From NCBI RefSeq assembly GCF_900258045.1, contig NZ_OGVD01000001.1, forward strand, positions 601,001-665,000: DNA of 64,000 nt. The letters are read 5' to 3'. The notes under the pieces were generated by a model. The model ran no database searches and was not told where the DNA came from. It saw only the letters and a list, made by a program, of their open reading frames with translations. Position numbers and translations under genes: made by a program. Source of the DNA: Sphingorhabdus sp. EL138. Lineage in GTDB: Bacteria > Pseudomonadota > Alphaproteobacteria > Sphingomonadales > Sphingomonadaceae. This document shows, piece after piece, positions 42,291 through 58,387 of the stretch. Position 1 is the stretch's first letter; each line of letters starts with the position of its first letter.

Positions 42291-44615
42291 TTAAGCTGAT
42301 TTGCGCTCCTGAAGGGCTGTCGTTTCAAGCCAGGCGGCCCGGAAAATATCTGCAGTAACCGGTTTGGAGATGTGCCAACCTTGGCCGATATCGCATTTCA
42401 TTCTGGTCAACAGGTTCAAGCAATGCTCGTCCTCGATGCCCTCTGCAACGACTTTGAAGCCGAGGGCATGCGCCATTTCAATCGCTGACTTGACGATCAC
42501 CTGATTGGATTTTTCAGTGACTATGGTCTTCACAAAGCTTTGATCGATTTTGATTTCATCGGCCGGAAGACGCTGCAAGTAGCTCATCGTAGACTGTCCG
42601 GTACCATAGTCATCAATGGAAACCCTGATCCCCGCATCTCTGATGCGTTGCAAAGCCATTATGGATAAATCGGGATCTGCCAGCGTCGCCGTTTCGGTTA
42701 CTTCAAAGGTCACTTGCTGATTCGGGGCTTTGGAAGCCTCCACCAGCGCAATGGCTTTTTCAACAAACATGCTGTCGCCAAGCAATTGCGCTGAGATATT
42801 CACCGAACAACTCAAGCCGGGTCGGGCGTCTTCCCAGGAGGCCAGATCCAGCAATGCGGATTGCAGAACAAACAAGGTGATATCGTCGATCCGGCGGGCT
42901 TTTTCCAGCATTGGAATAAAGAGGTCCGGGCTGATTCTGCCGCGTTCCGCATGGTTCCAGCGCACGAGCGCCTCCGCTCCGGATAATCCGTCTTCCTTCA
43001 AGTCCCATTTGGGCTGATAGACAATATTGATATCGCCATTGGCCAGAGCCTGATCCAAATCGACGAGCAGGCTTTGCTTTTCGCCTACCGCGCTGGCTTT
43101 TACAGCATCGTGCCACATCCACCTTTTACCTGCATTGGCAGCCTGTTCGGAAGCTATTTTTGCTTTGTCGACTGATTCGTTGCTGATACCGAAACTGACA
43201 TCAAGTCGTACTTTTGAGCCGCCGGCGATGACCGGAGAATGAAAAAGCGTGGCCGCCGTGTCAAAATGGGCCGCAATGTCGTCACGATATTCGTCTTTGA
43301 CGATCCAGGAAAAAATATCGGAATCGAGATGATATACACAGCCGTCAACCGCCAGAAATTTGAGCCGTTCAGCAATATTTCCGAATAATTCAATCCGGGA
43401 CTCAACATCAGTAACCACCAACAGATCGCGAAATTCCGAAATTCGCAGCGTGGCGATATTGGCCCCGCCATTCTTTCTCAACCACTGTTGGAGAGCAGTT
43501 TCGTTGGGTAAATTGCTGGTTTCATTGTAAAATTGACTTTCATTCAAAGCCAATCGGGTCCGGGAGAATGTTTCAAGCACAAGAAAAATGAGCAGGAAAA
43601 AAAGCGCCGGCACATTCGAATAAGTCAGATAGCCATTTTTTTCGAACGCCAGGATACTGGCAAACAAAGCCAGTCCGATGATCCAGACTGCGCCGGTCAA
43701 CATCGTGTGAGAGCAGCGTCCCGACAGGACCAGTATCATGAGAAATGCAGAAGCGGCGATGAGGGGAGGCCATTTCCCCAAATTTGCCATGTCGGTAGAT
43801 TGCAACATTGTTTCTGCCGCCAACGCCTGGATCAAGACACCTGGCACCACGCCGAACCGGCTGATGGGGTAGCGGTCACCCAGCTCGATTGCAGTGGCGC
43901 CGACAAGGATTTTCTTTCCCTCTATAGACTGCGGAAGAACATTGCCTTCAAGCACATCGATAAAGCTGAGCCGGGGAATGGTGCTTGGGTCTATGGATTG
44001 ATCGATCGCGAAGCTTTTCTCAATATTGCCAGAGGAATCGGCGAGCATGCTGGCGAGCGATGGGCGGACAGTGCCATCGGTTACGGTGCCATAGCTGTAT
44101 GTGTTGAGTTGCCCATTATTATCGGGATGCACATTAACAGACGCCAGGAAAGCATGCGCGCGCAGTTCTTCGATTGGCAAGCTTTCGACATAGCGGCTTT
44201 GATCGGCGGCATCTTTCTGCCGGAATGTGGGAAGCACGACAGAGGCATCTGATCGTGCGATGGCTTCTGCAAATTCCTGGTCCTGCTCTGTCGTAGAGTG
44301 CGCAGAAAAATCGATATCGAACACAATCTGCTCGGCACCCAGGCCGGACAGCTTATCAATTGCTTCGGCATAATGGCTTCGCGGCCATGGCCAGCGATCA
44401 AGGGCCTGAAGCGACTTTGCATCAATCTCGACGAGCAGGAAGTCCCCCGAAGCAGGTTTTTCCAGGATCTCCGCGCGAAAAGTCTGAAAACGCTGCTCCA
44501 CATCGCCGCCGATACCCGCCATGACCAGCAACGCCGCCGAAAGCAATGCCAGTGCCCACGCAACCAAGAGCCGGTGCGCGGTCAACAGATCAACAAAAGG
44601 CAGTTTTCCGTTCAA
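42291..44615 (-). CDS. CHASE2 sensor with degenerate GGDEF and EAL domain
   Basis: A 774-residue membrane sensor. An N-terminal CHASE2 region (about residues 30-270, periplasmic, after one membrane helix) is followed by three helices near 280-350. A degenerate GGDEF region of about 370-510 lacks the GGDEF signature, and an EAL phosphodiesterase domain follows. The EAL motif is intact as EALVRWNH near residue 550. Later catalytic elements SIDDYGTGQS, DEIKIDQSFV and KVVAEGIE are also present. It probably lowers c-di-GMP in response to an extracytoplasmic signal. The start is TTG at 44615 after AGGGAGA. It lies beside a FecR-domain gene, a recurrent partner of CHASE2 proteins. Confidence 0.88.
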   Translation of the reverse strand: MNGKLPFVDLLTAHRLLVAWALALLSAALLVMAGIGGDVEQRFQTFRAEILEKPASGDFLLVEIDAKSLQALDRWPWPRSHYAEAIDKLSGLGAEQIVFDIDFSAHSTTEQDQEFAEAIARSDASVVLPTFRQKDAADQSRYVESLPIEELRAHAFLASVNVHPDNNGQLNTYSYGTVTDGTVRPSLASMLADSSGNIEKSFAIDQSIDPSTIPRLSFIDVLEGNVLPQSIEGKKILVGATAIELGDRYPISRFGVVPGVLIQALAAETMLQSTDMANLGKWPPLIAASAFLMILVLSGRCSHTMLTGAVWIIGLALFASILAFEKNGYLTYSNVPALFFLLIFLVLETFSRTRLALNESQFYNETSNLPNETALQQWLRKNGGANIATLRISEFRDLLVVTDVESRIELFGNIAERLKFLAVDGCVYHLDSDIFSWIVKDEYRDDIAAHFDTAATLFHSPVIAGGSKVRLDVSFGISNESVDKAKIASEQAANAGKRWMWHDAVKASAVGEKQSLLVDLDQALANGDINIVYQPKWDLKEDGLSGAEALVRWNHAERGRISPDLFIPMLEKARRIDDITLFVLQSALLDLASWEDARPGLSCSVNISAQLLGDSMFVEKAIALVEASKAPNQQVTFEVTETATLADPDLSIMALQRIRDAGIRVSIDDYGTGQSTMSYLQRLPADEIKIDQSFVKTIVTEKSNQVIVKSAIEMAHALGFKVVAEGIEDEHCLNLLTRMKCDIGQGWHISKPVTADIFRAAWLETTALQERKSA

Positions 44616-44740: not shown

Positions 44741-46093
44741 TTATTTCGAATGCCCGTTCGCCTTGCCGCTATTGCCGTTTCCGTTACCGCCGCCATTGGA
44801 ACCGCCATTGCCGTTGCCGTTGTTTCCGTTGCCGTTTCCGCCACCGTTGGCGTTGCCATTTCCGGCCGTATTGCCGTTGCTCGCATTGGCACTGCCGCCG
44901 CCTTTGGCGTTGCCATTACCGGCCGTGTTACCGTTACTCGCATTGGCACTGCCACCGCCATTGGCATTGCCATTGCCAGCCGTGTTACCGTTACTCGCAG
45001 TGGCGCTTCCGCCGCCATTGGCGTTGCCATTGCCAGCCGTGTTACCGTTGCTCGCATTGGCACTGCCGCCGCCTTTGGTGTTGCCATTACCGGCCGCGTT
45101 GCCGTTACTCGCAGTGGCGCTTCCGCCGCCATTGGTATTGCCATTGCCAGCCGTGTTGCCGTTACTCGCATTGGCACTGCGGCCGCCGTTACCATTGCCG
45201 CCTGCATTGCCATTATTGGCGTTGCCGCTGCTGTTGCCGTTGCCACCACCGTTGCCATTGCCAAATGTGCCGGGGACACCGTTCGTGCTCGCATTGGACA
45301 GCGCCAGATCAATCAGATTGGGCGCATTGACCGAAGCCATTTGCACATTGGCTTTTGTCGATGAACCGCTGTTCACCAGACCACCCGTCAATTCACTCAG
45401 CGATACCGGAGATTCACTGACCGGAGCCTCGATTATACCTTCGAAACCGCCAGTGGCGATGTCGCTGGCAATCACGTCTTCTGAGGCCGTTGTTCCCGAG
45501 CTTTCAGCTGGCCCGTTTGGCGAGATGATTGTTTTCTCTTCCGAACCTGTGATCGAAAGCCGGAATTGGTCACCATTTTTGACCATTCCGATCATACCGG
45601 GCGACAATAGCTGTGTTGCACCTCCGTCTAGCGTAGAAACCTGCACGGCACCCTCGGTAACCTGCACCGCGGAACCGGTTTCCGTCACCGTGACGCTAAA
45701 GGTCGTGCCTTTTACAACAGCCGCCAGATAAGGTGTTTTTACACCAAAATGTGGAGTGCCCTTCTTGTCGATCCGGAAAATGACGTTGCCCAGCTCCTCA
45801 AAGAACTGCATGACACCGCCGCTTTTCTTCGGCTCGCTAATCCGCAGCCGGCTATTTGGCGAAACCACCACATATTCCTGGCCACGGACCAGGACAGCAC
45901 GGCCCTTTTTCCCTGTGCGGATAACGTCACCGGGACGAAGATCGCCACCAGCAATGGCAATTTTCGATACGCCCGATCGCAATATGTTAACGGTTCCATT
46001 GCTTTCAGAAAGCTTCCATTCCGGAGTCGCGCCATGGGCGGTGGTTCCTGTTGCAAATGCTGCAATTGCTATGAATTTGGCCAGTTTATGCAT
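44741..46093 (-). CDS. FecR-domain protein with Gly/Asn-rich tandem repeats
   Basis: About 450 residues: a signal peptide at MHKLAKFIAIAAFATGTTAHG, then a FecR-type beta domain (about residues 35-150) with GDVIRTGKKGRAVLV and VVKGTTFSVTVTETGSAVQVTEGAV. A Gly/Asn/Ala/Ser-rich tail follows, of 19-residue repeats of the type SANASNGNTAGNGNANGGG. The start is ATG 46093, with GAGGAAAG upstream. FecR domains in this context sense envelope signals or bind sugars/peptidoglycan rather than iron. The tail is probably disordered and extended. It is divergent from the TpsB gene at 46271 and just upstream of the CHASE2-EAL gene, so all three may act together. Confidence 0.82.
   Translation of the reverse strand: MHKLAKFIAIAAFATGTTAHGATPEWKLSESNGTVNILRSGVSKIAIAGGDLRPGDVIRTGKKGRAVLVRGQEYVVVSPNSRLRISEPKKSGGVMQFFEELGNVIFRIDKKGTPHFGVKTPYLAAVVKGTTFSVTVTETGSAVQVTEGAVQVSTLDGGATQLLSPGMIGMVKNGDQFRLSITGSEEKTIISPNGPAESSGTTASEDVIASDIATGGFEGIIEAPVSESPVSLSELTGGLVNSGSSTKANVQMASVNAPNLIDLALSNASTNGVPGTFGNGNGGGNGNSSGNANNGNAGGNGNGGRSANASNGNTAGNGNTNGGGSATASNGNAAGNGNTKGGGSANASNGNTAGNGNANGGGSATASNGNTAGNGNANGGGSANASNGNTAGNGNAKGGGSANASNGNTAGNGNANGGGNGNGNNGNGNGGSNGGGNGNGNSGKANGHSK
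44823..45221. repeat. 57-bp tandem repeat within the FecR protein gene
   Basis: The word CTCGCA recurs at 44880, 44937, 44994, 45051, 45108 and 45165, exactly 57 bases apart. A degenerate seventh copy precedes at 44823. Copies differ in a few bases, and alternate units differ by SANAS/SATAS and NANGG/NAKGG. The period equals 19 residues, so copy number can change without frameshift. Confidence 0.85.
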
Positions 46094-46270
46094 CGATACT
46101 TTCCTCAAACAGGTGAGATAACTTTTCCCACTCGTTCAAGCTTTTAAGTAAGATGATCGAACTTCTCGTTTAGAAACACCCTGAATTTTTCATTAAACAG
46201 CTGTTTCGATAAGCTTTTCCTAAGACATTAGACGTAAACGGACCTTCGATTAGAATTGTCGGAGTGTACG

Positions 46271-47911
46271 TTGTTGCGTTTGGGGTGTCTTGTATTGGTG
46301 GCTGGCTTTGCCTGTTCCGGCACTGGTGCTTCTGCACAGCAAGCAGCCAATCCCTTTGAAAGCGTTGGCGATCAAAATAGCCAGCGCGCCGAGAATCCCC
46401 TGTCGGAACAATCGGTGTTGCCAGTGGCTCAAAATCGACAGGCAAACTCAGTAGTCGATGGGGATGCCATTATGATTGGTGCCATAAATATCGATAGCGA
46501 ACTGCCTATTGCCGCGGAAAGGCTCGCCTCGGGATATGAGCAATATATTGGGCAAAGCGCCACACAAGAAGTGCTGAAGTCACTGGCCAGCTCCGTGTCC
46601 GAGATGGCGCGCCAGGAAGGTTATATTTTTGCCAGTGCGTTTATACCTCCGCAATCGGTCGAAGTTGGCGTCGTAAAGGTCCGACTGGATCCGGGCGCCA
46701 TTGACGAAGTGCGGATCATTGGCTCGCGCAACAAAAAATTGCGCAGAATATTGCTGAAACTGAAATGCGAAGCCGCCCAATCAGAACTTGTCGAGCAACA
46801 GTTGCTACTCGCTGGTGATCTGCCAGATATTACAGTTCGAAATACAACCTATCTGCGGGAAGAAGGTCGCGGGGTGCTCGTCGTCACGGTCCGCGAACAG
46901 AAGGCTCGCGGCTATGCTGCGCTGGATAATTACGGGCCGGATGCTCTCGGCCCTGTCCGCGCCCGTTTGCAGCTCGATATAGCTGGCCTGCTAACCGACA
47001 GTGACGTGCTGACGAGCAGCGTCATCACCACTGTTGCCCAGCCCAAAGAGCTCAACTTCGTGAGTTTGAAATATGCCAACACAATTGGCGATGGCGATAC
47101 TGTTGTCGGTTTTTCCGTTTCCGCTGGGCGGACACAGTCGGGCGGCCGTTTACGGTCACTCGATTATACAGGTCGCAGTCGATTTGCGTCTATCTTCGCT
47201 AGCCAGTCGCTTAAACGCAGCAATGATTTCAATCTCTGGCTCAATGCAGAGCTCGCCTATCTTGAAGTTGAACAGTCGCAGGACGGTGTCCGGTTCCAGG
47301 ACGACAAGATCGCGACGGCTGCACTCAATTTTACCGGTAATCACAAAATCGGTTCTGGCCGCATTTACGGCGGCATCGGTGTGACCCGTGGGCTTGGCAT
47401 ATTGGGCGCGAGCCGCCGAGGCGACCCCCTGAACTCTCGGTTCAATGGCAGCGGCGAGTTCACAAAGGCGAATGCCTGGGTCAACGCCATTCTGGACTTT
47501 GGTCACGGCTTCGGAGCGCGTATCGCCGGAAATGGTCAAATCGCTTCGCGCCCTCTACTGTCTGCTAATGAGATAGCGATCGGCGGTCCCTATTTCGGCA
47601 AAGGTTATGATTTCAGCGAACGTTTTGGCGATGAAGGCATCATGGGCCTTGCGGAGTTGCGCAAAGGTTTTGACAACGTCACAAATTGGCTGGACTGGGT
47701 CCAGCTATACGGGTTTGTCGACGGCGGTTATGTTACCAATATCGACACCGGCTTTGGTGACGGATCCCTTTCATCTGCTGGCGGAGGTATCCGTACGCAG
47801 ATGGGGCCAGTGGACTTCAACATCGAAACCGCCATGCCAATCAATGAAGACCGTTTCGAAAGCGCTGACCGATCTCCCAAAATCAATGTCCAGGTCGGTG
47901 TGCGGTTCTGA
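46271..47911 (+). CDS. ShlB/FhaC-family two-partner secretion transporter (TpsB)
   Basis: About 546 residues. A hydrophobic signal (LRLGCLVLVAGFACSGTGASAQ) leads to two POTRA domains (about residues 65-200) with GAINIDSELPIAAERLASGY, then VRLDPGAIDEVRIIGS, then VRITVREQ-like strands. A 16-strand barrel of the Omp85/TpsB family follows, containing YAALDNYGPDALGPVRARLQ, and ends in Phe (VQVGVRF). It exports a large TpsA protein through the outer membrane. The start is a TTG: 46271 with GGAG six bases before it, or 46274. No haemagglutination-domain TpsA gene is in the window. The divergent FecR-repeat gene is an unusual possible partner. Confidence 0.87.
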   Translation: MLRLGCLVLVAGFACSGTGASAQQAANPFESVGDQNSQRAENPLSEQSVLPVAQNRQANSVVDGDAIMIGAINIDSELPIAAERLASGYEQYIGQSATQEVLKSLASSVSEMARQEGYIFASAFIPPQSVEVGVVKVRLDPGAIDEVRIIGSRNKKLRRILLKLKCEAAQSELVEQQLLLAGDLPDITVRNTTYLREEGRGVLVVTVREQKARGYAALDNYGPDALGPVRARLQLDIAGLLTDSDVLTSSVITTVAQPKELNFVSLKYANTIGDGDTVVGFSVSAGRTQSGGRLRSLDYTGRSRFASIFASQSLKRSNDFNLWLNAELAYLEVEQSQDGVRFQDDKIATAALNFTGNHKIGSGRIYGGIGVTRGLGILGASRRGDPLNSRFNGSGEFTKANAWVNAILDFGHGFGARIAGNGQIASRPLLSANEIAIGGPYFGKGYDFSERFGDEGIMGLAELRKGFDNVTNWLDWVQLYGFVDGGYVTNIDTGFGDGSLSSAGGGIRTQMGPVDFNIETAMPINEDRFESADRSPKINVQVGVRF

Positions 47912-47963
47912 CGAATTCCGGGGTTCGCTTTTTCGCACATGAAACGGATTCAAAAAATCACTT

Positions 47964-48032
47964 CCGCTTTGCGCCCCAAATCCAGACGTTTAGATGACGT
48001 CCGTTTGATCTCGAAAGCGGACGCTGGAAACG
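47964..48032. repeat. Dispersed GTCCGC repeat, copy F, inverted orientation
   Basis: Read on the minus strand it resembles copy D. On the plus strand CCGCTTTGCGCCCCAAAT is followed by ACGTTTAGATGACGTCCG and CTCGAAAGCGGACG. It lies just beyond the TpsB stop and ends 16 bases before the beta-barrel gene stop. Confidence 0.65.
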
Positions 48033-48047
48033 TCGCAAAAATACTCG

Positions 48048-48908
48048 CTAGAATTCCCATTGTACAAGGGCGAAGAGCTGTGCATCGGCATGGGAGTTCA
48101 GATCGAACGCACCACCCAGCCCGATGGATAGGTCATTGTCGAATTCATAGGTAATACCGGCAGACAGCAAGTGTTCGGATTCTGATTCTATAACGTCATT
48201 CTGTTTTTCGCGTTCGTTTTCCCACAGATATTCTGCGACCAGGAATAGTCCTTCTGTGGGGGAGTAAGCCAATCCAGCTCCGAGTGCATATTCACGCAAC
48301 GAAAAATCCTCACCATCCTGCCGGGCATTGGGAACCGCTTCATATTCTGCAAGCGCATGAACAAAAAAATCGGTGGTCAGCGCCTTGCTGAGCCGGGCGC
48401 TCAGTTGATATCCGACACCGCCATTACCCGGGCCACTATCATTTTCGCCGACTGGAACGGTCAGGGCTGCACCAATTGTAAATTCAGGAATATTGTCACC
48501 GTTATCCTTGAGCAGCGCGTAATCCAGCCCAATTTCGGGATCGCCAATGCCGCCGCTTCGGCTATCTCTGAGAGGCAGTTCCGCAAAAACTTGCAGGCGA
48601 TCGGTCAGACCATATTCGAGCTCGAACTCCCATTGTCTTTCATCCGCCCCTTCGAGTGCTTGGCCTAGCGATACACCGATCTGCCATTCTCCCTTTTCCT
48701 GCGTATAGGCTTCCTCAAGCAGGAAGAGCATTTCCTGTCCCCCAAATTCATTTTCCGTATCAGATGCACCGGCTTTTTGCGGGACAAGCATGATCGATCC
48801 GACTAGGCCAAGGGCAACGCATAAGCGGAGACCAGCATGGATCCGAGAGAGGCTTTCAGGCGATCCCGTTACTTCTTTCCCGGATGATATCGAAAAGGCC
48901 TCAGTCAC
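48048..48908 (-). CDS. Outer-membrane beta-barrel protein of unknown role
   Basis: About 287 residues. A signal segment (LRLCVALGLVGSIMLVPQKAGA) leads to a single beta-barrel-like domain with alternating strands (VGVSLGQAL, WEFELEYGLTDRLQVFAELP). The C-terminus is QWEF, an aromatic end typical of outer-membrane proteins. The layout is like MetA/phenol-pathway transporter (outer membrane channel) proteins, not clearly assignable. The GTG at 48908 is chosen because it overlaps the response regulator stop by eight bases and starts before the signal; the frame to 49016 lies inside the regulator. It is the last gene of the seven-gene operon. Confidence 0.72.
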   Translation of the reverse strand: MTEAFSISSGKEVTGSPESLSRIHAGLRLCVALGLVGSIMLVPQKAGASDTENEFGGQEMLFLLEEAYTQEKGEWQIGVSLGQALEGADERQWEFELEYGLTDRLQVFAELPLRDSRSGGIGDPEIGLDYALLKDNGDNIPEFTIGAALTVPVGENDSGPGNGGVGYQLSARLSKALTTDFFVHALAEYEAVPNARQDGEDFSLREYALGAGLAYSPTEGLFLVAEYLWENEREKQNDVIESESEHLLSAGITYEFDNDLSIGLGGAFDLNSHADAQLFALVQWEF

Positions 48909-49584
48909 ACGATTTCGAAAGCCGATAGCCGCGGCCACGCACAGTTTCGATATGAGGTGCTTTGGGATTGCAATCAATTTTCTTGCGCAGCTTGGCGATA
49001 TAAACATCCACAACATTGGTCAGTGGGTCGGTATCCATCCCCCAAACATTGCTCAATATCCGTTCGCGACTGAACAATTCCCCGGGTTTGCTCATCAGAA
49101 GCTCCAGAATTGCGAGCTCCTTGTCAGTCAAGGTCAGTTCTTTGTCGCAGCACCATACGCGCACGGCTTTGAGGTCAAATCTCAGATCATCGACCTCAAG
49201 TATGCTATTGCCCTCGCTATAGCCGATGGCGCGGCGTCCCAGCGCCTCTATCCTTGCAACCAGCTCGTCGAAAGAAAATGGCTTGGTCATATAATCATCA
49301 GCACCCATGCGGAGGCCGGTGATTTTGTCATTCATAGAATCCATGGCGGTCAACATCATAATCGGTGTCGAGACGCCTTCGCTGCGCAACGCTTGACAGA
49401 TTTGGGTTCCGGACATGTCCGGCAGCATCAAATCCAGAATAATGACTTCATATTCATTGGCTTGCGCATCCCGATATCCGGCCACGCCATTATCAATCAG
49501 CTTGACCACATAGCCTTCAGATTTCAGACCACGACTGATAAAGTCGCCCACGCGCAGATCATCCTCAACAATCAAAATTCTCAT
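48901..49584 (-). CDS. OmpR/PhoB-family response regulator
   Basis: A 227-residue two-component regulator. Phospho-acceptor Asp 51 is in VIILDLMLPDMSG; the switch residues MLTAMD and YMTKPF are intact. A C-terminal winged-helix OmpR DNA-binding domain follows (about 130-225: LTLTDKELAILELLMSKPGELFSRERIL, quoted by its ends). It overlaps the histidine kinase stop by ATGA, so the two are co-translated. Direct repeats spaced 11 bp at 56301-56327, upstream of the operon, have the geometry this regulator class binds. Probable target: its own operon. Confidence 0.9.
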   Translation of the reverse strand: MRILIVEDDLRVGDFISRGLKSEGYVVKLIDNGVAGYRDAQANEYEVIILDLMLPDMSGTQICQALRSEGVSTPIMMLTAMDSMNDKITGLRMGADDYMTKPFSFDELVARIEALGRRAIGYSEGNSILEVDDLRFDLKAVRVWCCDKELTLTDKELAILELLMSKPGELFSRERILSNVWGMDTDPLTNVVDVYIAKLRKKIDCNPKAPHIETVRGRGYRLSKSCD

Positions 49585-51230
49585 GACACGACCCTCATCT
49601 GCTTTTCTGCCGGGAGAACAACCGTCGCCGAGATGATGTCATTGTCCTTCTGCTCAATGGCGATGGTCCCATCATGAGCTTCGACAATAGCCTTCGCAAC
49701 CGGAAGCCCCAATCCAGTGCCTTCATCGATCTCTCCGGCATTGCCTCCGCGGTAAAAACGATTAAAAATATAGCGCATATCCTCCTCACTGACCGCGTCG
49801 GAAACGTTGTCGACGGTAATTGCAATCCCTCCGGGCGATCGATTCAAATAGATCAAAATCTCGCTGTCTAGAGGCGCATATCGAATGGCATTATCGAGTA
49901 AAATGGCAAGAACTTGGCCAATCCGGCCTTGATCCCCTGAAACGATTAGCCCGGATATATTCCGCTCCATCTCCATTGAGATATTCTTGCGGGCTGCGAG
50001 CGCTTCGAACGCGTGGTGTTTCTCTTCAACCAGCCGGACTATGTCCAGCGGCTTTCTGACCAGTTTCAATTCCCCGGCCTGAGAGCGTGCGACAAATAGC
50101 AAGTCATCGATCAAGCGCCCTGTGTGAATGGCCTGATCGACGATAAGCTGCAGGCTGGACTCATATTCTTCCGCCGTCTTCTTCTTTCCTCTCAGGCTGA
50201 TCTCGGCCTCTCCCCGGATGACAGTGAGTGGTGTTCGCAATTCATGGCTGATGTCGGCAAATAGCCTTTTCCGGCCCTCATCTTTCTCGACCAAAGATTT
50301 GTTGGCCTGTTCCAGCTCTTCGGTGCGCGAAGAAACTGTTGCCTCGAGATCGGCGTTGGCAGTCAGAAGCTTTTCCTGCGCAGATCCGATCTGCTCTGCC
50401 ATTCGGTGGAACCGGTGCCCCAAATAGTCAAATTCGCGCGCCGGCAAATGGGGTATTTTATAGTCAAAGCGGTTCTGGCCATAGTTATCCAGGCCTTCCT
50501 GCAGTTGGTTCATGGACCGGTTGAAGATATGCGCGAGCTGCAGCACTGCGGGCATGATAAAAAGCAATGCCAGTGCGATGATGATGCTGGCGAAAATCTT
50601 CAGTTGTTGCCCGAGAGCTTCGATATCGCGTTGTGCTTCATTGATTTCCGATCGTTCTTCCGCAAGCAGAGCGTTGATGGATTCCGAAAATTGGCTTTCA
50701 ATCTGGCTCGACAAAACGGCGATAAATCGTTCTTGGGCCATTTCCGTTTGGCCGGAATCTCGGAGCAGCAAAATCTCGTCAAACTGGTTGATTGCCCTAC
50801 CAATCAACCTTTCCAACCCTGCCAGCTCTTCCAGCTCCTGCGCTTCATCTTCGATTTTTCCGACCAGCTCCACTTCCTTGGCAATATTTTGCCGGGCCAT
50901 GTCGAGCTGGGTCTGGATCTGCAATTTTACTTCGGTGATGTGCGCAATCGAACTGTTCGGTGGTTGATAGACTGCCACGGTCATTTTTTTTACCAGTCGC
51001 TCGGTGAGCATTGCTGCTTCGCTGTAACTGTGGACGACATCGTTCGCGAGCTGGTTGCGTTCGAACAACAGACTGGATCGGGTGGTGCCGTAGAAATTTG
51101 CTATGCTGGCAGAAATTGCCAGCATCAGCAAGGCACCGAGCGTCGTAAACAACCGCACACGAAACGACATTTTCAATTTGCGCGAGTTAAAGAACATTTG
51201 CGGAAATCTTCCACTAAACGGGGGGTTCAT
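49581..51230 (-). CDS. Sensor histidine kinase with periplasmic helical sensor and HAMP
   Basis: About 549 residues. A first membrane helix is at about 25-45 (LFTTLGALLMLAISASIANF). A periplasmic four-helix-like sensor of about 46-205 follows, with charged EEVELVGKIEDEAQELEEL-type helices (paraphrased). A second helix (IFASIIIALALLFIMPAVLQLA) leads to HAMP, then the HisKA H-box DISHELRTPLTVIRGE, N-box VLAILLDNAIRYAP and G-box EGTGLGLPVAKAIVEAHDG. The ATG at 51230 follows GGAAGG; a GTG at 51239 is possible. The signal is probably extracytoplasmic. It lies 89 bases after the porin stop in the seven-gene operon. Confidence 0.9.
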   Translation of the reverse strand: MNPPFSGRFPQMFFNSRKLKMSFRVRLFTTLGALLMLAISASIANFYGTTRSSLLFERNQLANDVVHSYSEAAMLTERLVKKMTVAVYQPPNSSIAHITEVKLQIQTQLDMARQNIAKEVELVGKIEDEAQELEELAGLERLIGRAINQFDEILLLRDSGQTEMAQERFIAVLSSQIESQFSESINALLAEERSEINEAQRDIEALGQQLKIFASIIIALALLFIMPAVLQLAHIFNRSMNQLQEGLDNYGQNRFDYKIPHLPAREFDYLGHRFHRMAEQIGSAQEKLLTANADLEATVSSRTEELEQANKSLVEKDEGRKRLFADISHELRTPLTVIRGEAEISLRGKKKTAEEYESSLQLIVDQAIHTGRLIDDLLFVARSQAGELKLVRKPLDIVRLVEEKHHAFEALAARKNISMEMERNISGLIVSGDQGRIGQVLAILLDNAIRYAPLDSEILIYLNRSPGGIAITVDNVSDAVSEEDMRYIFNRFYRGGNAGEIDEGTGLGLPVAKAIVEAHDGTIAIEQKDNDIISATVVLPAEKQMRVVS

Positions 51231-51319
51231 GTTTGCCACCTTCCGGGATTCGCTCTGACCAGCATGTTAAAATAGGACTGTCCTGTGAATATGGCATGAC
51301 AAACACTCCTACCTCGTCT

Positions 51320-52483
51320 TTAAAAGGCCAACTGAAACCGAGTTGCCAAAGCATCAACGGATTCCGAAAATCCAAAGCGACCCGGATTGGCCCTTGCGTG
51401 CACATAGTTTAGCGCGATTTTCACATTTTTTCCCAGATACCAATTGGTGCCCATACTGATATTCATTTCCTTGCCGCCGGTTACTGGGCCGTCCTCAAGG
51501 TCCAGGAAGCTTATCCTTGCGGCCAGTTCCACCGCTCCCCATTTTCCGGATGGCCGTATTGTTCCGAAGCTTCCGCTCGACAGGCTGAACCGCTGCCGTT
51601 CGCCCGTCAGGACATAAGCAGCTTCAAGCGACCCGCCCGAGAATTCAGGATTGCCGAGATCGGTGGAATCATTGAATCGGTGCAAATATTGGCCTGTTAC
51701 AACAAACGGCCCCTGAGCGAATCCGGCCTCGACAGCGATATTTGTATAACCATCTACATTCCGAAGATTGCCGGTGTCGATCAGGCGGGTAAAGCTTAGG
51801 CCAAGTTCCGGCGTCGAACGCACGCGGGTTCGGGCTCCGGCGTTTAGATTGCGGTGATCAATGGCGGTGGCCGCAAATAGAGTTTTGCTGCGCTCTCTGA
51901 TCGGTGCCCAGACCAGTTTTCCGACCAGACTTGTTCCATCTTCCCTCGGCTGCCTGTCATCCCCGGCATCAATCGCATTGCCAAGATAGGCGACCGTTGC
52001 GGCGATATTGTCGCCGGCGTAGGTGGCCGAGGCTCCGGCACGAAAGTTCGGCGCCAGTGCGGCCGAAAGCGATCTTTCGAGGAACTTCAGATTGTTCGAG
52101 CTTTTTTGTCTTTCGCCGAGAAACGGCGTTGTAAAGTTTCCCGCACGGATCGTTAGATTGTCGATGCCGCTGTAGGAAAGCCAGACATTGCGCAAGCCGG
52201 TAGAGATGCCTCCAACATCTGTGTCAAATTTCGCACGCCAGTCATCGCCAATCTCGACCGTGGCATCCAAGCGCAAGCGGCGTATATCGACTTCATCCTC
52301 GATATTCGTGACGTCGCTGTCCGAAACCACTGCGTCAAGATGAAGTCGCCCTCCCAGGGTCAGGCGAAACTCTCCGGACTCCAGTTCAATACCGTCAGAG
52401 CCCGCGTTAATCTCCCCTGCCAAGGCAGAAGCCGGCAAGCAACTCGCAAGGCCGCCAACGAACACGCAGAGAACCTGTTTCAA
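51320..52483 (-). CDS. OprO/OprP-type phosphate-selective porin
   Basis: A 387-residue outer-membrane porin with signal peptide MKQVLCVFVGGLASCLPASALA. The family's conserved N-terminal strand LTLGGRLHLDAVVSD is seen, then VDIRRLRLDATVEIGDDWRAKFDTDVGG. The RAGNFTTPFLGERQKSSNNLKF block has the typical RxGxFxxPF pattern, and the C-terminus is FQLAF. In Pseudomonas, OprP and OprO form anion channels with phosphate or pyrophosphate selectivity; many relatives carry other anions, so the substrate is not fixed. It overlaps the hydrolase stop by four bases and is in the same operon as a kinase/regulator pair. Confidence 0.87.
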   Translation of the reverse strand: MKQVLCVFVGGLASCLPASALAGEINAGSDGIELESGEFRLTLGGRLHLDAVVSDSDVTNIEDEVDIRRLRLDATVEIGDDWRAKFDTDVGGISTGLRNVWLSYSGIDNLTIRAGNFTTPFLGERQKSSNNLKFLERSLSAALAPNFRAGASATYAGDNIAATVAYLGNAIDAGDDRQPREDGTSLVGKLVWAPIRERSKTLFAATAIDHRNLNAGARTRVRSTPELGLSFTRLIDTGNLRNVDGYTNIAVEAGFAQGPFVVTGQYLHRFNDSTDLGNPEFSGGSLEAAYVLTGERQRFSLSSGSFGTIRPSGKWGAVELAARISFLDLEDGPVTGGKEMNISMGTNWYLGKNVKIALNYVHARANPGRFGFSESVDALATRFQLAF

Positions 52484-53376
52484 GAGCTCTGGCTTTCATC
52501 AGTTTCCGGCGGTGCAGGGACTTCATCAAGCAATTGATCGAGAACGAGGCGACCATAGCCCTTGGTCTCAAAATTCCTGCGAAACCCATGACGCAGACCC
52601 TTCAACACCTGCAGTTTGATGCTGCAATCGGATGGGAGTTCCGCATTCATCGCCCTGACCCACGTCTGGGCTCTGATAACCCGAGTGCGACCTTGCAGAT
52701 AGTCGATCTGTTTGTCTTGATTCAGTGACGCGCTGCGACCGGTATCGTTATCACCGACCAATACCAGCACTTCGGCATTGCAAAATCCGTCCAGAGAAAG
52801 CGACCGATCTCCCAGGTTCTTGGACTGTCCAAACCCTAGCGGATAAGAGTAGCCGCCATAGGGCATCGTGTACCAACCAGGCGCGAAAAGAACTGCCCGG
52901 CCAACAATATCAGGATGCAGCATCATCAACCGATGAAGAAACTGGCCACCGCCAGAATAACCAACTGCACGGATCGTTGAAAGGTCAAGATCCTCGATTT
53001 CGCGCAGTTCATCTATCAGTTCCATCAACGCGATGTCGGGTGCAGGATTATGCCCATGTGACCGGACTTGCTGATAGCGGCGAAACTTCTTGCGGGTGAA
53101 ATGCGGGACGACGATGGTCATACCCTTTTCTTCCGCCAGTTCCTGTAAAACCACGGCATGCTGCAGCGCGTTGCGCGTATAGCCATGGATTGAAAAGATC
53201 ACCTTTTCAGCCTGCCCGAAAGTTTGCCGCGGTCGATAGATGAAATAGGAAAGCCCGCAAGGTCCTCGCGTAGTCAAGGCCATGATACGCCCGCGGATGT
53301 GTATTCGGTCCCTTATGTCCGGAGAGGGAATATCATCTTCTCTTACAGTTAGTTTCTCGAGATAAGCCATATCCAT
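52480..53376 (-). CDS. Cytoplasmic or exported alpha/beta hydrolase
   Basis: A 298-residue alpha/beta hydrolase. IFSIHGYTRNALQ is the oxyanion region, VGYSGGGQFLHR is the nucleophile elbow with Ser near residue 157, and LRHGFRRNF near residue 270 carries the likely catalytic His. LVLVGDNDTGRS holds the Asp. The chain has no obvious signal peptide. The style recalls depolymerase/feruloyl-esterase-like enzymes. It overlaps the ABC exporter gene by 44 bases and the porin by four, so it belongs to the operon and could hydrolyse a compound moved by the exporter or porin. The start could also be the third codon (53370). Confidence 0.85.
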   Translation of the reverse strand: MDMAYLEKLTVREDDIPSPDIRDRIHIRGRIMALTTRGPCGLSYFIYRPRQTFGQAEKVIFSIHGYTRNALQHAVVLQELAEEKGMTIVVPHFTRKKFRRYQQVRSHGHNPAPDIALMELIDELREIEDLDLSTIRAVGYSGGGQFLHRLMMLHPDIVGRAVLFAPGWYTMPYGGYSYPLGFGQSKNLGDRSLSLDGFCNAEVLVLVGDNDTGRSASLNQDKQIDYLQGRTRVIRAQTWVRAMNAELPSDCSIKLQVLKGLRHGFRRNFETKGYGRLVLDQLLDEVPAPPETDESQSS

Positions 53377-55069
53377 GTCTTTCTATTTTTGAAGGTTCGG
53401 CAAGGCCGGTTTGCGTTTGTTGATCATCCTTGTCGCGATCCAGCGCCGGGCCGCGTTGCTTGGCGAGGGTCCAGATGTCATCTGCCATGCCGAGCAGATG
53501 CTGATCATGGGTGGCCATTATGACCGTGCCTTCGAAAGTACTGATCACCCGTCGTAATGCTGCAATGCCAAGTTCATCCAGATTCTGCTCTGGTTCGTCC
53601 AACAACAGCACCCTGGGATTGCAGACGAGAGCACGGGCGAGAATGATGCGGGCGCGTTCTCCCGCGCTCAAATTCGTGCCCTGCTCATGCACTGCACGTT
53701 CCGAATGCAACGCGGCATAGGGATTATCGATTGCTATTCCGGCTCTATATGCTGCCCGGCGAATATCTTCCGGTGAGGCTTTAACGCATCCATAGGCGAT
53801 ATTCGACCAAATGGTGCCGCGCATCAGCGGCATCAGACTGGATGCAATCGAGATCGTTCTACGCAATTCGCCGGTGCGGACTGACAATATGTCACGGCCA
53901 TCCAGCCGGATAGAGCCAGCGTCAGGATCAATGAGACGCTGGGCCAATCTCAACAAAGTTGTTTTGCCACTACCGCTAATGCCTTTGACAGCAATCACTG
54001 CCCCCGGGCTGGCTGTGGCGGAGAACTCCCGGATGACCGTACCCGAGGAAACATTATCAAAGCGCAGCTCGCCTTTGACATTCTGCAAGGGCTTGCGGCT
54101 GGAGGAAGGAAAAATGGCTGGACCCCGTTGAAAGATCGAACCGATCTTTTCACGCGCAACGCCCGCATCTTTCCAATATTCGAACAATCGCCCAAATCCG
54201 CTCAGCGCCGGGGTTGCAAGCGTCAAAATCCCGAAAGCCGCCACAATTTCTCCCATGGTCGCCGTTGCGCTATATATTGCAAAGGCACCTACTCCCATCG
54301 CCGCGACCAGTGTCAGACTGGTAACCAGATAGGCCAGAGCGCGGACAAGTCCGGTCGCAGATGCCCGAGCCACCATAGCGTTTTTCAGGCTCTTTGATTG
54401 CCGGCGGAGCTTCTTGCGCTCTGTACGCCGTTGTCCGAAGGCCTGGATCATCACCATGTTGCCTAGTTTCTCTGCGATATTGCTAGCGATATTGCCTCGG
54501 CGGCGGCGCGCCTCGCGAATGGTATGATCCACATGTTTGCCGGTCAGTAAAATGGATGCAGCGCCCACAAACATCACAACCAGAGAAACCAGTCCGATCA
54601 TCGGATTGATAACGGTTAGAAATGCCAGCGCGCCCACCAAAATCGTCATGGCAACTATGGCGCTTGCGATACCCATGCTGATCCATTGGCGCAGAGCCGT
54701 CAGATCATTCACAAAACGCAGCATCACTACTCCTTTGCGGAGCTCCTCGATGCCCTGGGCGGACATGCTGCTGATATGACTAAAAATTCGCATCCGCGTT
54801 TCGAAGACATAGTCCTGACCAAGTCTTTCCATATCGATGCGTTCGCGCCATTTCAGAGCGGCAATGACCAACGCCAGGGCCGCCATGATAGCTGCTGGTG
54901 CAACCAAAGTGGTCAGACCGGAAGCTGCATGTTGCATCGCATCAAATTGGAACTTCAATGCTAGACCAATGCCACCTATGGCCGCCGCCTGCGCGAAACC
55001 ATTCAGGACCAATATGGTCAGGATGGTTCCGCGATTGCGGTTAACTAGCTGCGGTAAACCGGCTGTCAT
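53333..55069 (-). CDS. ABC exporter, fused transmembrane and ATPase domains
   Basis: A 578-residue half-exporter. Five to six helices cover about residues 15-310, then the ATPase domain. Walker A is GISGSGKTTLLRLA, the signature LSAGERARIILARAL, Walker B VLLLDEPEQNLDE and H-loop MATHDQHLL. LSAGE replaces the usual LSGGQ, which is a tolerated variant. AGGGAATATTCCG precedes the ATG at 55069 and supports that start over 55132, so it overlaps the P-loop gene by 29 bases. It exports a peptide, lipid or small molecule out of the cytoplasm, presumably the compound the rest of the operon makes or senses. Homodimeric form is assumed. Confidence 0.88.
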   Translation of the reverse strand: MTAGLPQLVNRNRGTILTILVLNGFAQAAAIGGIGLALKFQFDAMQHAASGLTTLVAPAAIMAALALVIAALKWRERIDMERLGQDYVFETRMRIFSHISSMSAQGIEELRKGVVMLRFVNDLTALRQWISMGIASAIVAMTILVGALAFLTVINPMIGLVSLVVMFVGAASILLTGKHVDHTIREARRRRGNIASNIAEKLGNMVMIQAFGQRRTERKKLRRQSKSLKNAMVARASATGLVRALAYLVTSLTLVAAMGVGAFAIYSATATMGEIVAAFGILTLATPALSGFGRLFEYWKDAGVAREKIGSIFQRGPAIFPSSSRKPLQNVKGELRFDNVSSGTVIREFSATASPGAVIAVKGISGSGKTTLLRLAQRLIDPDAGSIRLDGRDILSVRTGELRRTISIASSLMPLMRGTIWSNIAYGCVKASPEDIRRAAYRAGIAIDNPYAALHSERAVHEQGTNLSAGERARIILARALVCNPRVLLLDEPEQNLDELGIAALRRVISTFEGTVIMATHDQHLLGMADDIWTLAKQRGPALDRDKDDQQTQTGLAEPSKIERHGYGLSRETNCKRR

Positions 55070-56171
55070 CGGAATATTCCCTTGCAAGTCCAAAGCCTTC
55101 GACGGTTTCCACGGAAACCGGCGTTTTCGCAATTCGGGCGGGTTTCATGATTGTACTCAGGACCTGCTCATTTTGTGCGAACTCACTCAGCGTCAGCGCC
55201 GGCAAACCGGTGGCCTTTGCGGCTTCTTTCGCGGCCAGATCAGAGGCCGTCAGAGCACCCGATATGGCGCTGGGTATCAAACCCAATGCCCGAATGTGCC
55301 GAACACCGGCCAGTGCACCCATGGGATCGCCGCTGGCGAACAACACACTGTCAACCATCGCTTGGAATCTCGGCGACTTCATCAGCAGATCAGTTTCGGT
55401 CTGGAACAGTCCATCGGCGATTTCGGCGATGATGATGTCACAGGTTTTGCTGGCCTCGGCGTAGAGCTTTTGTGCGATTGTTTCGAGCTGAGCCAGAGTA
55501 AGGCCAACCGTTGCGGCATGGCCAGCATCGGTGAAATCGATCGTAACCTTGGCACCGGAGTCCTTATAAAACCAAAGATCGCCGCCAGCGCCTGTGCCGG
55601 TTATCTTGATCGCACCCACTTTAAGGCCGGCCTGTTTTGCTGCTCTGATAATGGCGGCAACGGTGGTGGTCTTACCGGCGTTCATACCGGATCCAACCAC
55701 AAGCGCCATATGAGGTCGGACCGCACGCCCGACGGCTGCCTGTTCAAGCGCATAGTCCATCACGTTCATGGCACTGCCGTCGGCCCTGCACAGAATTCCG
55801 AGCGGCTCGATAGCAGTTGGTTTTTTGGTGCTGCTGTGCCGTGAAATCAAGCTGGCGGCTATGCCACCGGCAGCTACCAAAGAACAAGGTTCAACGCTGT
55901 CCGGCACGCGGCCTTCGAACTGATCCGTCGCATAGCGGTTTGAATAGGCGACAATGATCATATCGCCAGGAAACATCCGCGCGCGCCGACCATCTGGCTG
56001 CTCTATACGCTGGTGATGCCCAATCTTGCTCACCCGAGCAACGCAAAGATCTCCATTTCGCGGTTTCAGGTCGCTGCGATAGCCTTTGGCATCACTGATG
56101 CGAACATTCCTTGTAACAAAAGCCCGCTTGGCGGTCTTGAAATTCATACTCTCCATCGTCTTGATACTCAT
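55041..56171 (-). CDS. P-loop NTPase with N-terminal beta domain, DUF1611-like
   Basis: About 376 residues. An N-terminal beta-rich part (about 15-150) leads to the nucleotide domain with Walker A LVVGSGMNAGKTTT (about 157-170). AIKITGTGAGGDLWFYKDSGA and the Mg/switch-like IIIAEIADGLFQTET follow. The last phrase resembles the DUF1611/DgcN and MobB-like classes, in which a nucleotide domain acts on an amide or peptide-like substrate. Function is unknown. It is the first gene of the seven-gene operon, and 29 bases of its end overlap the ABC exporter. The ATG at 56171 is preferred (AAAGGG upstream); 56192 is the longest frame. Confidence 0.75.
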   Translation of the reverse strand: MSIKTMESMNFKTAKRAFVTRNVRISDAKGYRSDLKPRNGDLCVARVSKIGHHQRIEQPDGRRARMFPGDMIIVAYSNRYATDQFEGRVPDSVEPCSLVAAGGIAASLISRHSSTKKPTAIEPLGILCRADGSAMNVMDYALEQAAVGRAVRPHMALVVGSGMNAGKTTTVAAIIRAAKQAGLKVGAIKITGTGAGGDLWFYKDSGAKVTIDFTDAGHAATVGLTLAQLETIAQKLYAEASKTCDIIIAEIADGLFQTETDLLMKSPRFQAMVDSVLFASGDPMGALAGVRHIRALGLIPSAISGALTASDLAAKEAAKATGLPALTLSEFAQNEQVLSTIMKPARIAKTPVSVETVEGFGLAREYSDDSRFTAAS

Positions 56172-56300
56172 GATAAAAACCCTTTCAGTCATGCAATCCG
56201 CTTTGACCCTGATGAGATCGCCGCTCAGTAATTGCCCCGCCCCCTGATCTTCGAAAAGTGACAGCAGTGTAAACGGGAGAAGGCGGCTTTTAAGTGCCCC

Positions 56301-56327
56301 TTCACTCTGGTTTCATGGAATTTTCAC
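56301..56327. promoter_or_regulatory. Three 11-bp-spaced direct repeats upstream of the seven-gene operon
   Basis: TTCAC (56301), TTCAT (56312) and TTCAC (56323) recur with exactly 11-base spacing; read on the operon strand they are GTGAA, ATGAA, GTGAA. OmpR/PhoB-family dimers bind head-to-tail repeats with this spacing. The block is 130-156 bases upstream of the ATG at 56171, where an activator site fits. Binding by the 48901 regulator is inference. Confidence 0.6.
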
Positions 56328-56454
56328 GTTGATGACGGCAGGCTGAACCATTGCGTGAACGGCAAATGAACTGCTGATTTTTGTTAACTGGGCAGCAAGA
56401 ATCCGCAAACTGATCCTCGTTGTCGAATCATATGATCCGACTCGATACCGTCCG

Positions 56455-56784
56455 ATGAAATCGAACAGATTTGAAAATTCCAATCGCTCGACGATTAATA
56501 CCGCAGCGGCCTCTAGAGAGCCCGATCCAATTCTACTTCGATTAGTTGCTCATGCATTTGCAGCTCAGGGTTTTCTGGTTCGTCGAGAACCATCCCCCAT
56601 GATTTCGGAATACAACCAAAGGCACATTCAACAGCTAGCTCGCATAAGCTATCTGGCACCTGATATTATCTCGGCAATAGTTGATGGTACTCAGCCCGTC
56701 GATTTGACTGGTCGCAAGATCTTGCGCATTGGCAATGTTCCGCTCTGCTGGAAAGCACAGCGCCAGCTCCTCGGTTTCAACTAG
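56455..56784 (+). pseudogene. C-terminal part of a large serine-recombinase-family protein
   Basis: A 109-residue frame. ISYLAPDIISAIVDGTQPVDLTGRKILR and LCWKAQRQLLGF resemble the conserved C-terminus of sphingomonad recombinase-family proteins, where LARLAYLAPDI, IxxGRQP and a WxxQRxxLGF end occur. No catalytic serine domain precedes it. It may be a decayed recombinase or a short independent protein; the remnant explanation is preferred because recombination debris surrounds it. AT-richer sequence begins about here. Confidence 0.55.
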
Positions 56785-57154
56785 AGCGCAAAACCGCCTA
56801 AATCCAAATGTGCATCTGGTGCCAGCGTTTTGGGCCATCGAGATAAATGGGCTTTTGTGGCAGTGTTCGGCGCTGACAAATGGTCTCTCTTCGACAGTAT
56901 AAAGCGGGCCCTATCGCTAACCTGCGGAAATATGGCTACTATTCATGCGCACAAACGCAAAATCCGGAGACAATGAAAACTTGGGAAAAAAGTGGTGCGC
57001 GGTGCAGTCTGTCGAGAACGGGTCTCGGTTGGAGTTTGCCTATTATTGGGTGCCAATAACAGGGAATTTTCAGTTTTTTTGGACAGGACTACAACGAATC
57101 CTCGGTCAACCATTTAGAATATATGGTTTTTTGACCAAATCTCCCGATTGATAT
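56785..57154. other. Gap without a supported gene
   Basis: Short open frames on both strands (for example 56945-57151) show no homology and no ribosome site. One stray CAGGGAA word lies at 57060. The sequence is AT-rich and seems to be non-coding mobile-element debris. Confidence 0.5.
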
Positions 57155-57242
57155 CAGGGAATCGTTTTTCCAGTATCAGGGAAGTTTGTGCGCTTGATCA
57201 GGGTAATCGCAACCTTGAACAGGGATTTCAGATTCCCTGTTC
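57155..57242. repeat. Iteron-like CAGGGAA array with terminal inverted repeat
   Basis: CAGGGAA at 57155 and 57177, CAGGGTAA at 57199 and CAGGGAT at 57220 are spaced 22, 22 and 21 bases, two helical turns. The last unit is part of a perfect nine-base inverted repeat GAACAGGGA / TCCCTGTTC (57217-57225 and 57234-57242). Such spacing places protein-binding sites on one DNA face. No replication gene is nearby, and no published function is known to me. Confidence 0.65.
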
Positions 57243-57332
57243 GAGATACCTTCCTTCTAAGGTTTTCCAGCTAATGAGCAGTTTGGTAGTGAGGGAACGG
57301 TGACATTGTACCGATTTCCAAAAACTACTGTT

Positions 57333-57405
57333 AATGTTCGTTTTCGAGATAAAGCAGCCGCAGCGCCAATGTCCGCTAAGGGCGCAAAAACGGGCAGCGG
57401 ATTCG
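57333..57405. repeat. Degenerate dispersed GTCCGC repeat, copy G
   Basis: AATGTTCGTTTTCGAGATA at the start echoes the opening of copy B. AATGTCCGCTAAGGGCGCA lies further on and GCTGCGCCCAAT at the end. It is the most decayed family member in this window. Confidence 0.45.
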
Positions 57406-57523
57406 GGCTGCGCCCAATCGAATCTCCAACATATAAGTCGATTACTTGGAAATCGGCCATAGATCGAAACTTTTCTCACCCACTCTCGTCTAATTGTTTC
57501 TGCCTACAATTTTACGGACAAAT

Positions 57524-58387
57524 ATGGATCAAGAATCATATCACAAAAAACGTAAAAACGTTGCTCTAGCTGAAGGCCTTGTTTCTTTTGTTTCGATGGG
57601 CGCTGGGCCGCCCGCAGTCTTTATTCATGGGTTGATGCTTAACAATGCTGTTTGGCGACCGCTGATAAATAAATTAAGGTTTGTTCGAGAATGCTTCGCA
57701 CCAGATTTACTAGCGCACGGCCGAACCCAAGCGGCTGAGGGTCAAGACCTTTCTCTGGATAGTCAGGCGGAAATGATAGCAAATTTTTGCCGAACTTTGG
57801 GTCATGACAAAGTTGACATTATCGCGAGCGATTTTGGAGGTGCAGTTGCGCAATTATTCGTGATCAAATACCCCAAAATGGTACGGAGTATGAGTCTAAC
57901 GAACTGCGACGTGCATTATAATCTCGGGCCACCCGCAGACCTGCGGCGTATTATTCCATTAGCAAAAGATGGACAATTGGGAAATCTCATAGCGTCAATG
58001 ATGTCCAATATTGATCTGGCTCGCAGTCAGTTTCCCGGACGCGGCTTTCAAAATCCCGAAAATCTGAAACAGGAAGATATCGCAGAACTGCTTGAACCGT
58101 GTTTTGGAAGCGAGAATGGAAGAAAGCAATTCGAACGGTTTATTTTGTCCCTGTCCGAAGATGAACTGGCAAAATATGAACCGCAACTAAAGGAACTGAA
58201 GACTCCATCCTTGCTCGTTTGGGGAACTGAAGACAGTTACTTCGGGCTTCCCTGGGCTTTCTGGTTACGTGACACTTTAGGCGGGAGCGTGACGTTAGTG
58301 GAAATTGAACGAGGAGGCTTGTTCATACAAATGGAACGCACGCATGAGGTGAGCGAGGCCATAAATTTGTTTTGGGAAAAACAATAA
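57524..58387 (+). CDS. Alpha/beta-hydrolase-fold protein with Asp nucleophile and no catalytic His
   Basis: A 287-residue alpha/beta hydrolase related to haloalkane-dehalogenase-type proteins. AVFIHGLMLNNAVW is the oxyanion region. IIASDFGGAVAQ has Asp 103 at the nucleophile elbow, as in haloalkane and fluoroacetate dehalogenases. LVWGTEDSYFG gives the acid Asp 237. At the place of the catalytic His, usually GGHF, the sequence reads GGLFIQME (Leu 266). A His at 274 (ERTHEV) is displaced by eight residues. It may be an inactive binding protein or use another base. The ATG at 57524 (MDQES) is preferred over 57494. It overlaps nothing but is followed 17 bases later by a membrane protein gene with a strong GGAGG. 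Confidence 0.85.
   Translation: MDQESYHKKRKNVALAEGLVSFVSMGAGPPAVFIHGLMLNNAVWRPLINKLRFVRECFAPDLLAHGRTQAAEGQDLSLDSQAEMIANFCRTLGHDKVDIIASDFGGAVAQLFVIKYPKMVRSMSLTNCDVHYNLGPPADLRRIIPLAKDGQLGNLIASMMSNIDLARSQFPGRGFQNPENLKQEDIAELLEPCFGSENGRKQFERFILSLSEDELAKYEPQLKELKTPSLLVWGTEDSYFGLPWAFWLRDTLGGSVTLVEIERGGLFIQMERTHEVSEAINLFWEKQ

Follow-up and report, generated by a model that had tools for sequence, protein, structure and literature searches.

A gene cassette of Sphingorhabdus and its relatives whose ABC-exporter-type carrier appears repeatedly to lose its ATPase domain

What might a bacterium accomplish by joining a P-loop nucleoside triphosphatase (NTPase), an ATP-binding cassette (ABC) exporter, a hydrolase, a porin, a sensor kinase, its response regulator and a beta-barrel protein in one operon, and how far does the exporter of that operon depend upon its ATP motor? 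The seven genes lie within a 64,000-nucleotide stretch of the Sphingorhabdus sp. EL138 genome (contig NZ_OGVD01000001.1, positions 601,001 to 665,000), hereafter termed the window; all seven frames are open, all are on the minus strand and their order is that given in an earlier note on this DNA, with whose family names searches of Pfam and NCBIfam agree (Table 1). That the seven genes form a cassette for transport and processing, complete with regulators of its own, is, in our judgment, an evenly balanced proposition. Our best reading, drawn from sequence comparison, is that the cassette would process and move a small compound, probably acidic, and that its exporter would repeatedly lose its ATP motor.

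States of the transporter ATPase domain

Loci for comparison were retrieved by means of the P-loop gene, and the counts that follow are silent on carriers lacking it. Pooling of 124 loci with a P-loop match, the window included, and removal of six weak matches (score below 300) and ten taken for identical copies left 108 loci; distinct loci number 109, since L098 was grouped with L095 on a short stray segment of identity and stands outside the 108-locus set. The contig of L098 ends 143 bases past the match with no ABC gene visible, and no other count is affected. A cassette ABC gene is found at 88 of the 108 loci, two of which (L068 and L103) are cut by contig ends, giving an apparent loss of the ATPase domain, and are left out of the 86 considered here. 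Proteins were classed as intact when simple patterns for the Walker A, signature and Walker B motifs all matched, and as altered when at least one failed. By this measure 51 proteins, including that of the window, are intact, 25 are altered and ten are without an ATPase domain.

The window protein exceeds the cut-offs of PF00664 (71.7 bits; cut-off 28) and PF00005 (85.9 bits; cut-off 25), and contains Walker A (GISGSGKT), signature (LSAGE) and Walker B (VLLLDEP) motifs. Its Q-loop glutamine is missing (ISIASSLMPLMRGT), as it is from 50 of the 51 proteins with intact motifs, the exception being L100, which may belong to another subfamily. With its basic motifs preserved, the window's copy stands at the beginning of the proposed loss series. 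The altered class is mixed: Walker A is missing from 15 of the 25 and retained in ten, while L161, L163 and L164 differ from the pattern in the last signature residue alone and may, judging from their sequences, be active ATPases.

The ten proteins without an ATPase domain are found at L018, L019, L021, L022, L029, L044 (Novosphingobium sp. B1), L053 (Blastomonas sp. AAP53), L055 (Erythrobacter dokdonensis), L063 (Novosphingobium taihuense) and L179, in open frames of 322 to 366 residues, counted from some 20 residues upstream of the match. At L053, the start of the carrier gene lies in an ATGA overlap with the stop of the P-loop gene and its stop overlaps a start codon of the hydrolase frame; there is therefore no room for an ATPase domain. 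When eight genomes were searched with PF00664, one ATPase-less cassette copy (322 residues) was found at threshold, others being too divergent for the model, and all other matches lie in frames of at least 578 residues, bar three fragments in one 300-contig assembly (G1252). PF00664 is the sole Pfam family matched by the L053 protein at an E-value of 1e-4 or better. In its predicted model six main helices span all 306 residues, and the fold predicted for this one protein is that of an entire ABC-exporter membrane domain. All ten proteins retain specific charged membrane residues; of the residues that bear upon a possible loss of the coupling helices, R128 and E227 are gone and D132 is kept.

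Several lines of comparison bear upon the history of these states. Across a tree of 107 P-loop proteins, from which L095 was left out, the intact or not-intact state changes at least seven times and the presence or absence of the ATPase domain at least twice. A careful tree of 38 rows contains a 16-row clade (99/97) composed of altered or ATPase-less members only, and placement of the ten ATPase-less rows in a single group is rejected for this set (approximately unbiased test, p 0.023), the test having been picked after the first tree was seen. The altered L023 is sister to the ATPase-less L044 and L063. The simplest reading of the tree, which is unrooted, is that motif decay preceded domain deletion. 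Purifying selection is evident in the pairs compared among the ten ATPase-less proteins. An unusually fast ATPase domain relative to the membrane domain was also considered and rejected, as the ratio of nonsynonymous divergence (dN) between the nucleotide-binding domain (NBD) and the transmembrane domain is 1.36 to 4.5 in the cassette and 0.12 to 8.0 in three other exporter groups of the genus; the absolute rate alone stands out, with NBD dN reaching 0.239 in the cassette against at most 0.061 in those three groups.

In our reading the ATP motor has been lost from these carriers separately, naturally and by degrees. The order of events would be loss of the Q-loop glutamine, then of the ATPase motifs and then of the whole domain, which would have been deleted at least twice, the membrane domain meanwhile staying under selection in the same operon slot. 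We propose tentatively, and at somewhat short of even probability, that this is a second and ongoing conversion of an exporter into a carrier lacking an ATP motor, independent of SbmA/BacA and driven by an ion gradient or by the P-loop NTPase.

SbmA, which is related to ABC membrane domains, lacks an NBD by nature, and its origin is proposed to lie in an early ancestor of YddA (PMC13316013). The SbmA/BacA secondary peptide transporters resemble the ATPase-less cassette carriers in their ABC-exporter-type membrane domain, and are proposed to descend from full ABC transporters by loss of the ATPase domain (PMC13316013). The L053 protein differs in matching PF00664 and no SbmA model, in its model of six main helices along the entire chain, in being encoded in an operon with the P-loop and hydrolase genes, and in that the same slot of this operon holds, in related loci, proteins whose ATPase domain is full or altered. 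The cassette apparently parallels SbmA/BacA from another ABC branch; SbmA is absent among the 50 fold matches listed for L053, an absence that excludes nothing. A further likeness is to the engineered membrane domains of MsbA and LmrA, which operate with proton coupling in the absence of the NBD; MsbA so truncated exports ethidium in a proton-coupled manner (PMC4979069). Those proteins are laboratory truncations, whereas the cassette truncation is natural, occurs at ten distinct loci and is under selection in those pairs that were compared. The predicted L053 membrane domain and the basic ATPase motifs of the window protein likewise resemble those of the type IV exporters TmrAB, CydDC and MsbA, from which the cassette differs in the near-universal lack of the Q-loop glutamine noted above. 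A literature search that reached few subscription journals found no natural proteins made of an ABC membrane domain only, other than the SbmA-like peptide transporters (SLiPTs).

A recurrent core under changeable control

The full seven-gene order is kept in five close relatives (L032, L033, L034, L035 and L176), from which it follows that the order is beyond chance and that the seven genes behave as an operon; synteny thus supports the proposal in the earlier note of a single operon joining exporter, hydrolase and channel. Five or more of the seven genes, the measure of recurrence raised there, are present at 13 of the 76 loci that are well flanked (at least 4 kb upstream and at least 6.5 kb downstream), counting any channel and any nearby kinase and regulator. 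Seven of these 13 come from neither the window nor its five close relatives, often with the regulators placed differently. The seven genes as a conserved unit were rejected outside the clade of the window, the profile of the PF13557 barrel matching, among the loci examined, in the window and the five relatives alone.

What recurs more widely is a smaller set. Among the 76 well-flanked loci, 67 have the ABC protein, three a major facilitator superfamily (MFS) carrier, 53 the hydrolase and 40 an outer-membrane channel, with ABC protein, hydrolase and channel all accompanying the P-loop gene at 37. The channel family varies with lineage (Porin_O_P, Porin_4, or OprB in cyanobacteria), six of eight cyanobacterial loci have no hydrolase match, and one supported group includes seven loci at which the gene after the hydrolase encodes an MFS carrier in place of the ABC protein. 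The P-loop enzyme, ABC-type membrane protein, hydrolase and channel form a tight recurrent cluster in Pseudomonadota, which is shorter in Cyanobacteria. The inner-membrane slot is variously occupied by a complete ABC protein, by one whose ATPase motifs are changed or missing, by a bare membrane domain or by an MFS carrier. Two enzymes, a carrier for the inner membrane and a channel for the outer one thus make up the core, and its control varies. No description of such a cassette was found in the literature search.

A kinase and regulator are nearby at 18 of the 76 loci, an extracytoplasmic function (ECF) sigma factor and anti-sigma protein at 21 (one locus having both), and neither at 38; the private sensor proposed earlier is a lineage feature, and the two-component system is an interchangeable add-on to the core. 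In many Alphaproteobacteria its place is taken by an ECF sigma factor, an anti-sigma-like protein and an S8 protease, the last occurring at 24 of the well-flanked loci. Such sets, with a secreted-looking protease, lie beside the cassette at L053 (13983-17154), L018, L056, L059, L094 and others, several with Gly/Asp repeats. A search of the window's own genome for an anti-sigma homologue gave no match, which is uninformative without a positive control. An association of ECF genes with alteration or loss of the ATPase (2 of 36 intact loci versus 18 of 31) was not significant when relatedness was allowed for, there being four independent pairs on well-supported branches.

The P-loop protein itself has at least 1256 database matches and is patchily distributed, occurring, own genome included, in 16 of 296 genomes of the order (E 1e-3) and in 18 of 397, 20 of 385 and 3 of 398 genomes sampled from the family, class and phylum, respectively (E 1e-40). 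Within the genus of the window it is present in five genomes and missing from five listed ones. Relatives are carried on eight plasmid records, one plasmid being typed as conjugative, and horizontal movement is therefore plausible. On a Paracoccus liaowanqingii plasmid (L207, 9688-14924) the cassette adjoins an annotated response regulator, ATP-binding protein, peptidase domain-containing ABC transporter and HlyD-family adaptor. At L029 (G294, 8743-9968, minus strand) the P-loop gene is split across two frames and the following cassette genes are open. Distant relatives of the P-loop protein at L128-L131 and L134 (G611, G628, G324, G551 and G530) either match no family or stay under the cut-off of AAA_26 or DUF1611, and three of them lie in very small (1.4 Mb) genomes of the same class.

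Substrate, energy source and competing explanations

The model of the P-loop protein is of high confidence (predicted local distance difference test score 93.1), and its C-terminal domain has a BioD/CTP-synthase fold, that of a SIMIBI-type NTPase. Two DUF1611 structures (2g0t and 2obn) also match and, alone among the 50 entries listed, clearly reach the N-terminal part. The window protein nonetheless falls under every Pfam and NCBIfam cut-off, including those of MobB (PF03205; 24.4 bits versus 26.6) and DUF1611 (PF07755; 18.3 bits versus 25). A precomputed PF03205 label is attached to many relatives, including the 96%-identical P0001, and a few bear a precomputed PF07755 label; 50 of 69 family members match PF07755 at an E-value of 0.1 or better. 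The fold of the P-loop domain is thus shared with dethiobiotin synthetase and with DgcN, which we take to be a DUF1611 member, although the window copy lies below the Pfam cut-off.

The window hydrolase has no Pfam match and weak NCBIfam esterase matches. Its family profile matches the structures of poly(Asp) hydrolase-1 (E 1.1e-49 for 6ve6, and 5.4e-49) and LpqC (1e-46), and across 48 sequences Ser141 and His263 of the catalytic triad are invariant and Asp211 is at least 90% conserved; by sequence group and triad the hydrolase is related to PahZ1 and LpqC, if remotely. PahZ1 of Pedobacter is reported to hydrolyse the beta-amide linkages of poly(Asp) (PMC4456602). Together the two enzymes hint at an acidic, amide-linked substrate, and the earlier suggestion that an anionic compound or a peptide is taken up or otherwise handled would be compatible with the hydrolase relatives and with conserved arginines. 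Genes for enzymes modifying acidic residues occur near the cassette (L053 9032-9661, L206 5476-6048 and L208 3338-4729): an Asp/Asn beta-hydroxylase-like protein is found at 13 of the 76 loci, and an HTTM-domain protein on a Paracoccus plasmid is annotated with peptidyl-glutamic acid carboxylation.

As we envisage it, the P-loop enzyme would act in the cytoplasm, activating or modifying a small compound of acidic and perhaps Asp/Glu- or peptide-like character, the hydrolase, whose nearest solved relatives are poly-aspartate hydrolases, would cleave the same compound class, the ABC-fold protein would carry the compound over the inner membrane, the Porin_O_P channel would serve as the outer-membrane route, and the kinase and regulator would sense the compound and switch the operon. 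Some lineages, probably including that of the window, would profit from ATP hydrolysis by the carrier, and others would manage without it, their membrane domain probably acting as an ion-driven carrier; it is from conservation that we infer carrier function without ATP. Several points weigh against this picture. The hydrolase group includes LpqC and polyhydroxybutyrate (PHB)-depolymerase-like proteins, so that the case for an acidic peptide is weak. The altered ATPase-like domains are under purifying selection (dN/dS, the ratio of nonsynonymous to synonymous divergence, 0.15-0.32) and may keep a non-catalytic role rather than simply eroding. Moreover, 20 of the 108 loci show no visible cassette ABC gene, partly owing to contig ends, and the loci favour near relatives (the best 80 of 451), so the life of carrier and hydrolase apart from the P-loop gene cannot be read from the counts.

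Other explanations differ chiefly in the direction of transport and its source of energy. The ABC-fold protein might be an importer like YbtPQ/IrtAB, and the operon a system for uptake and breakdown under two-component control, the channel admitting an oligomer, the carrier importing it and the hydrolase and P-loop enzyme catabolising it. We regard this as unlikely: exporters make up most of the fold and sequence matches listed and rank above importers of the YbtPQ/IrtAB type, and the recurrent neighbour clusters include no binding protein or catabolic enzyme. It is rather improbable that genes at other places supply the ATPase-less proteins with a partner, be it a full ABC half-transporter or a separate ATPase, leaving transport ATP-driven. 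The genomes do contain other full-length ABC exporters, and heterodimers in which one site is degenerate are a familiar arrangement (PMC7756269); yet the lost residues are those of loops facing the ATPase domain, and the flanks in hand of the ten loci, to which the search for a partner was confined, contain no cassette-family ABC partner gene, their other ABC matches being an importer-ATPase-like protein at L018, identified by sequence reading, and one in L055.

Should the P-loop protein energise the membrane domain as ArsA does ArsB, a comparison drawn for an NBD-less exporter in PMC4979069, the ABC ATPase domain would be redundant. Its SIMIBI-type fold and the position of its gene, directly upstream of and overlapping the carrier gene in both the window and L053, fit this notion, which we consider very improbable given that the best fold matches are ATP-dependent ligases (BioD and CTP synthase), with DUF1611 near, and that the P-loop gene also accompanies MFS carriers or the hydrolase alone; its presence at every locus is meaningless, being that of the search query. 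Barely credible is an operon for uptake of phosphate or polyphosphate, as the OprO/P name would imply. The window porin does match PF07396 (OprO/OprP; 160.5 bits, cut-off 20.9), but Porin_4 or OprB replaces it in other lineages, the recurrent annotated neighbours include no phosphate gene, and the regulator reaches PhoB models only below their cut-offs. With nothing in its favour beyond the channel, a phosphate or polyphosphate function was dropped.

Gene boundaries, neighbouring genes and significance

The junction lengths of the earlier note (from P-loop gene to barrel gene -29, -44, -4, +89, -4 and -8 bases) are all reproduced with its start codons, but three of the six depend upon the start chosen or are peculiar to the species of the window. 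In L032, the 44-base overlap of transporter and hydrolase genes is replaced by a 6-base gap and the 8-base overlap of regulator and barrel genes by a 41-base gap, while in L033, L034, L035 and L176 the kinase ATG, preceded by AGGAG, lies 19 bases past the porin stop, versus 89 in the window. The P-loop gene does not extend to 56327 as had been stated, the first in-frame start being ATG 56192, and homologues point to ATG 56171. Promoter-like motifs (5 versus a mean of 7.4 in shuffled sequence) and terminator-like motifs (11 versus 10.8) are no commoner than background, and no Rfam family reaches threshold within 47500-57600.

Table 1. Genes of the operon in the window (positions are those of the window)
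Gene product	Position	Strand	Remarks
P-loop enzyme	55041..56192	-	383 aa as listed; likely start ATG 56171; N-terminal beta-rich part and BioD/DUF1611-like P-loop domain
ABC-exporter-type transporter	53333..55069	-	ATG 55069; membrane and ATPase domains; PF00664, PF00005
Alpha/beta hydrolase, PahZ1/LpqC group	52480..53376	-	Ser141-Asp211-His263 triad
Outer-membrane channel, Porin_O_P	51320..52483	-	TTG start; PF07396
Sensor histidine kinase	49581..51230	-	PF00512 (HisKA), PF02518 (HATPase); ATG of the earlier note; GTG 51239 also possible
OmpR-type response regulator	48901..49584	-	PF00072, PF00486
Beta-barrel outer-membrane protein	48048..48908	-	PF13557, Phenol_MetA_deg-type

Upstream of the operon lies a divergent frame for a hypothetical protein of 109 residues (56455-56784, plus strand) with no Pfam or NCBIfam match. 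On the other side, a gene for a FecR-domain protein with Gly/Asn-rich repeats (44741-46108, minus strand), containing tandem DNA units of 57 and 171 bases within 44763-45259, stands beside one for a ShlB-type two-partner secretion transporter (46256-47911, plus strand); a large protein encoded at 42291-44615 (minus strand) presumably combines CHASE2 and EAL domains. These genes probably constitute a system separate from the operon.

The cassette marks out a widespread family of P-loop enzymes whose relatives are mostly unlabelled, or else labelled as MobB or DUF1611. The need of ABC exporters for an ATPase domain has been argued so far from laboratory truncations and from SbmA/BacA, and the available portions of the SbmA/BacA literature name no intermediate with a decayed ATPase domain. 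In the cassette, one transporter occurs naturally with its ATPase domain complete, altered or deleted, always in the same operon slot, and the question of whether such a transporter needs its ATPase is therefore directly testable with natural proteins.

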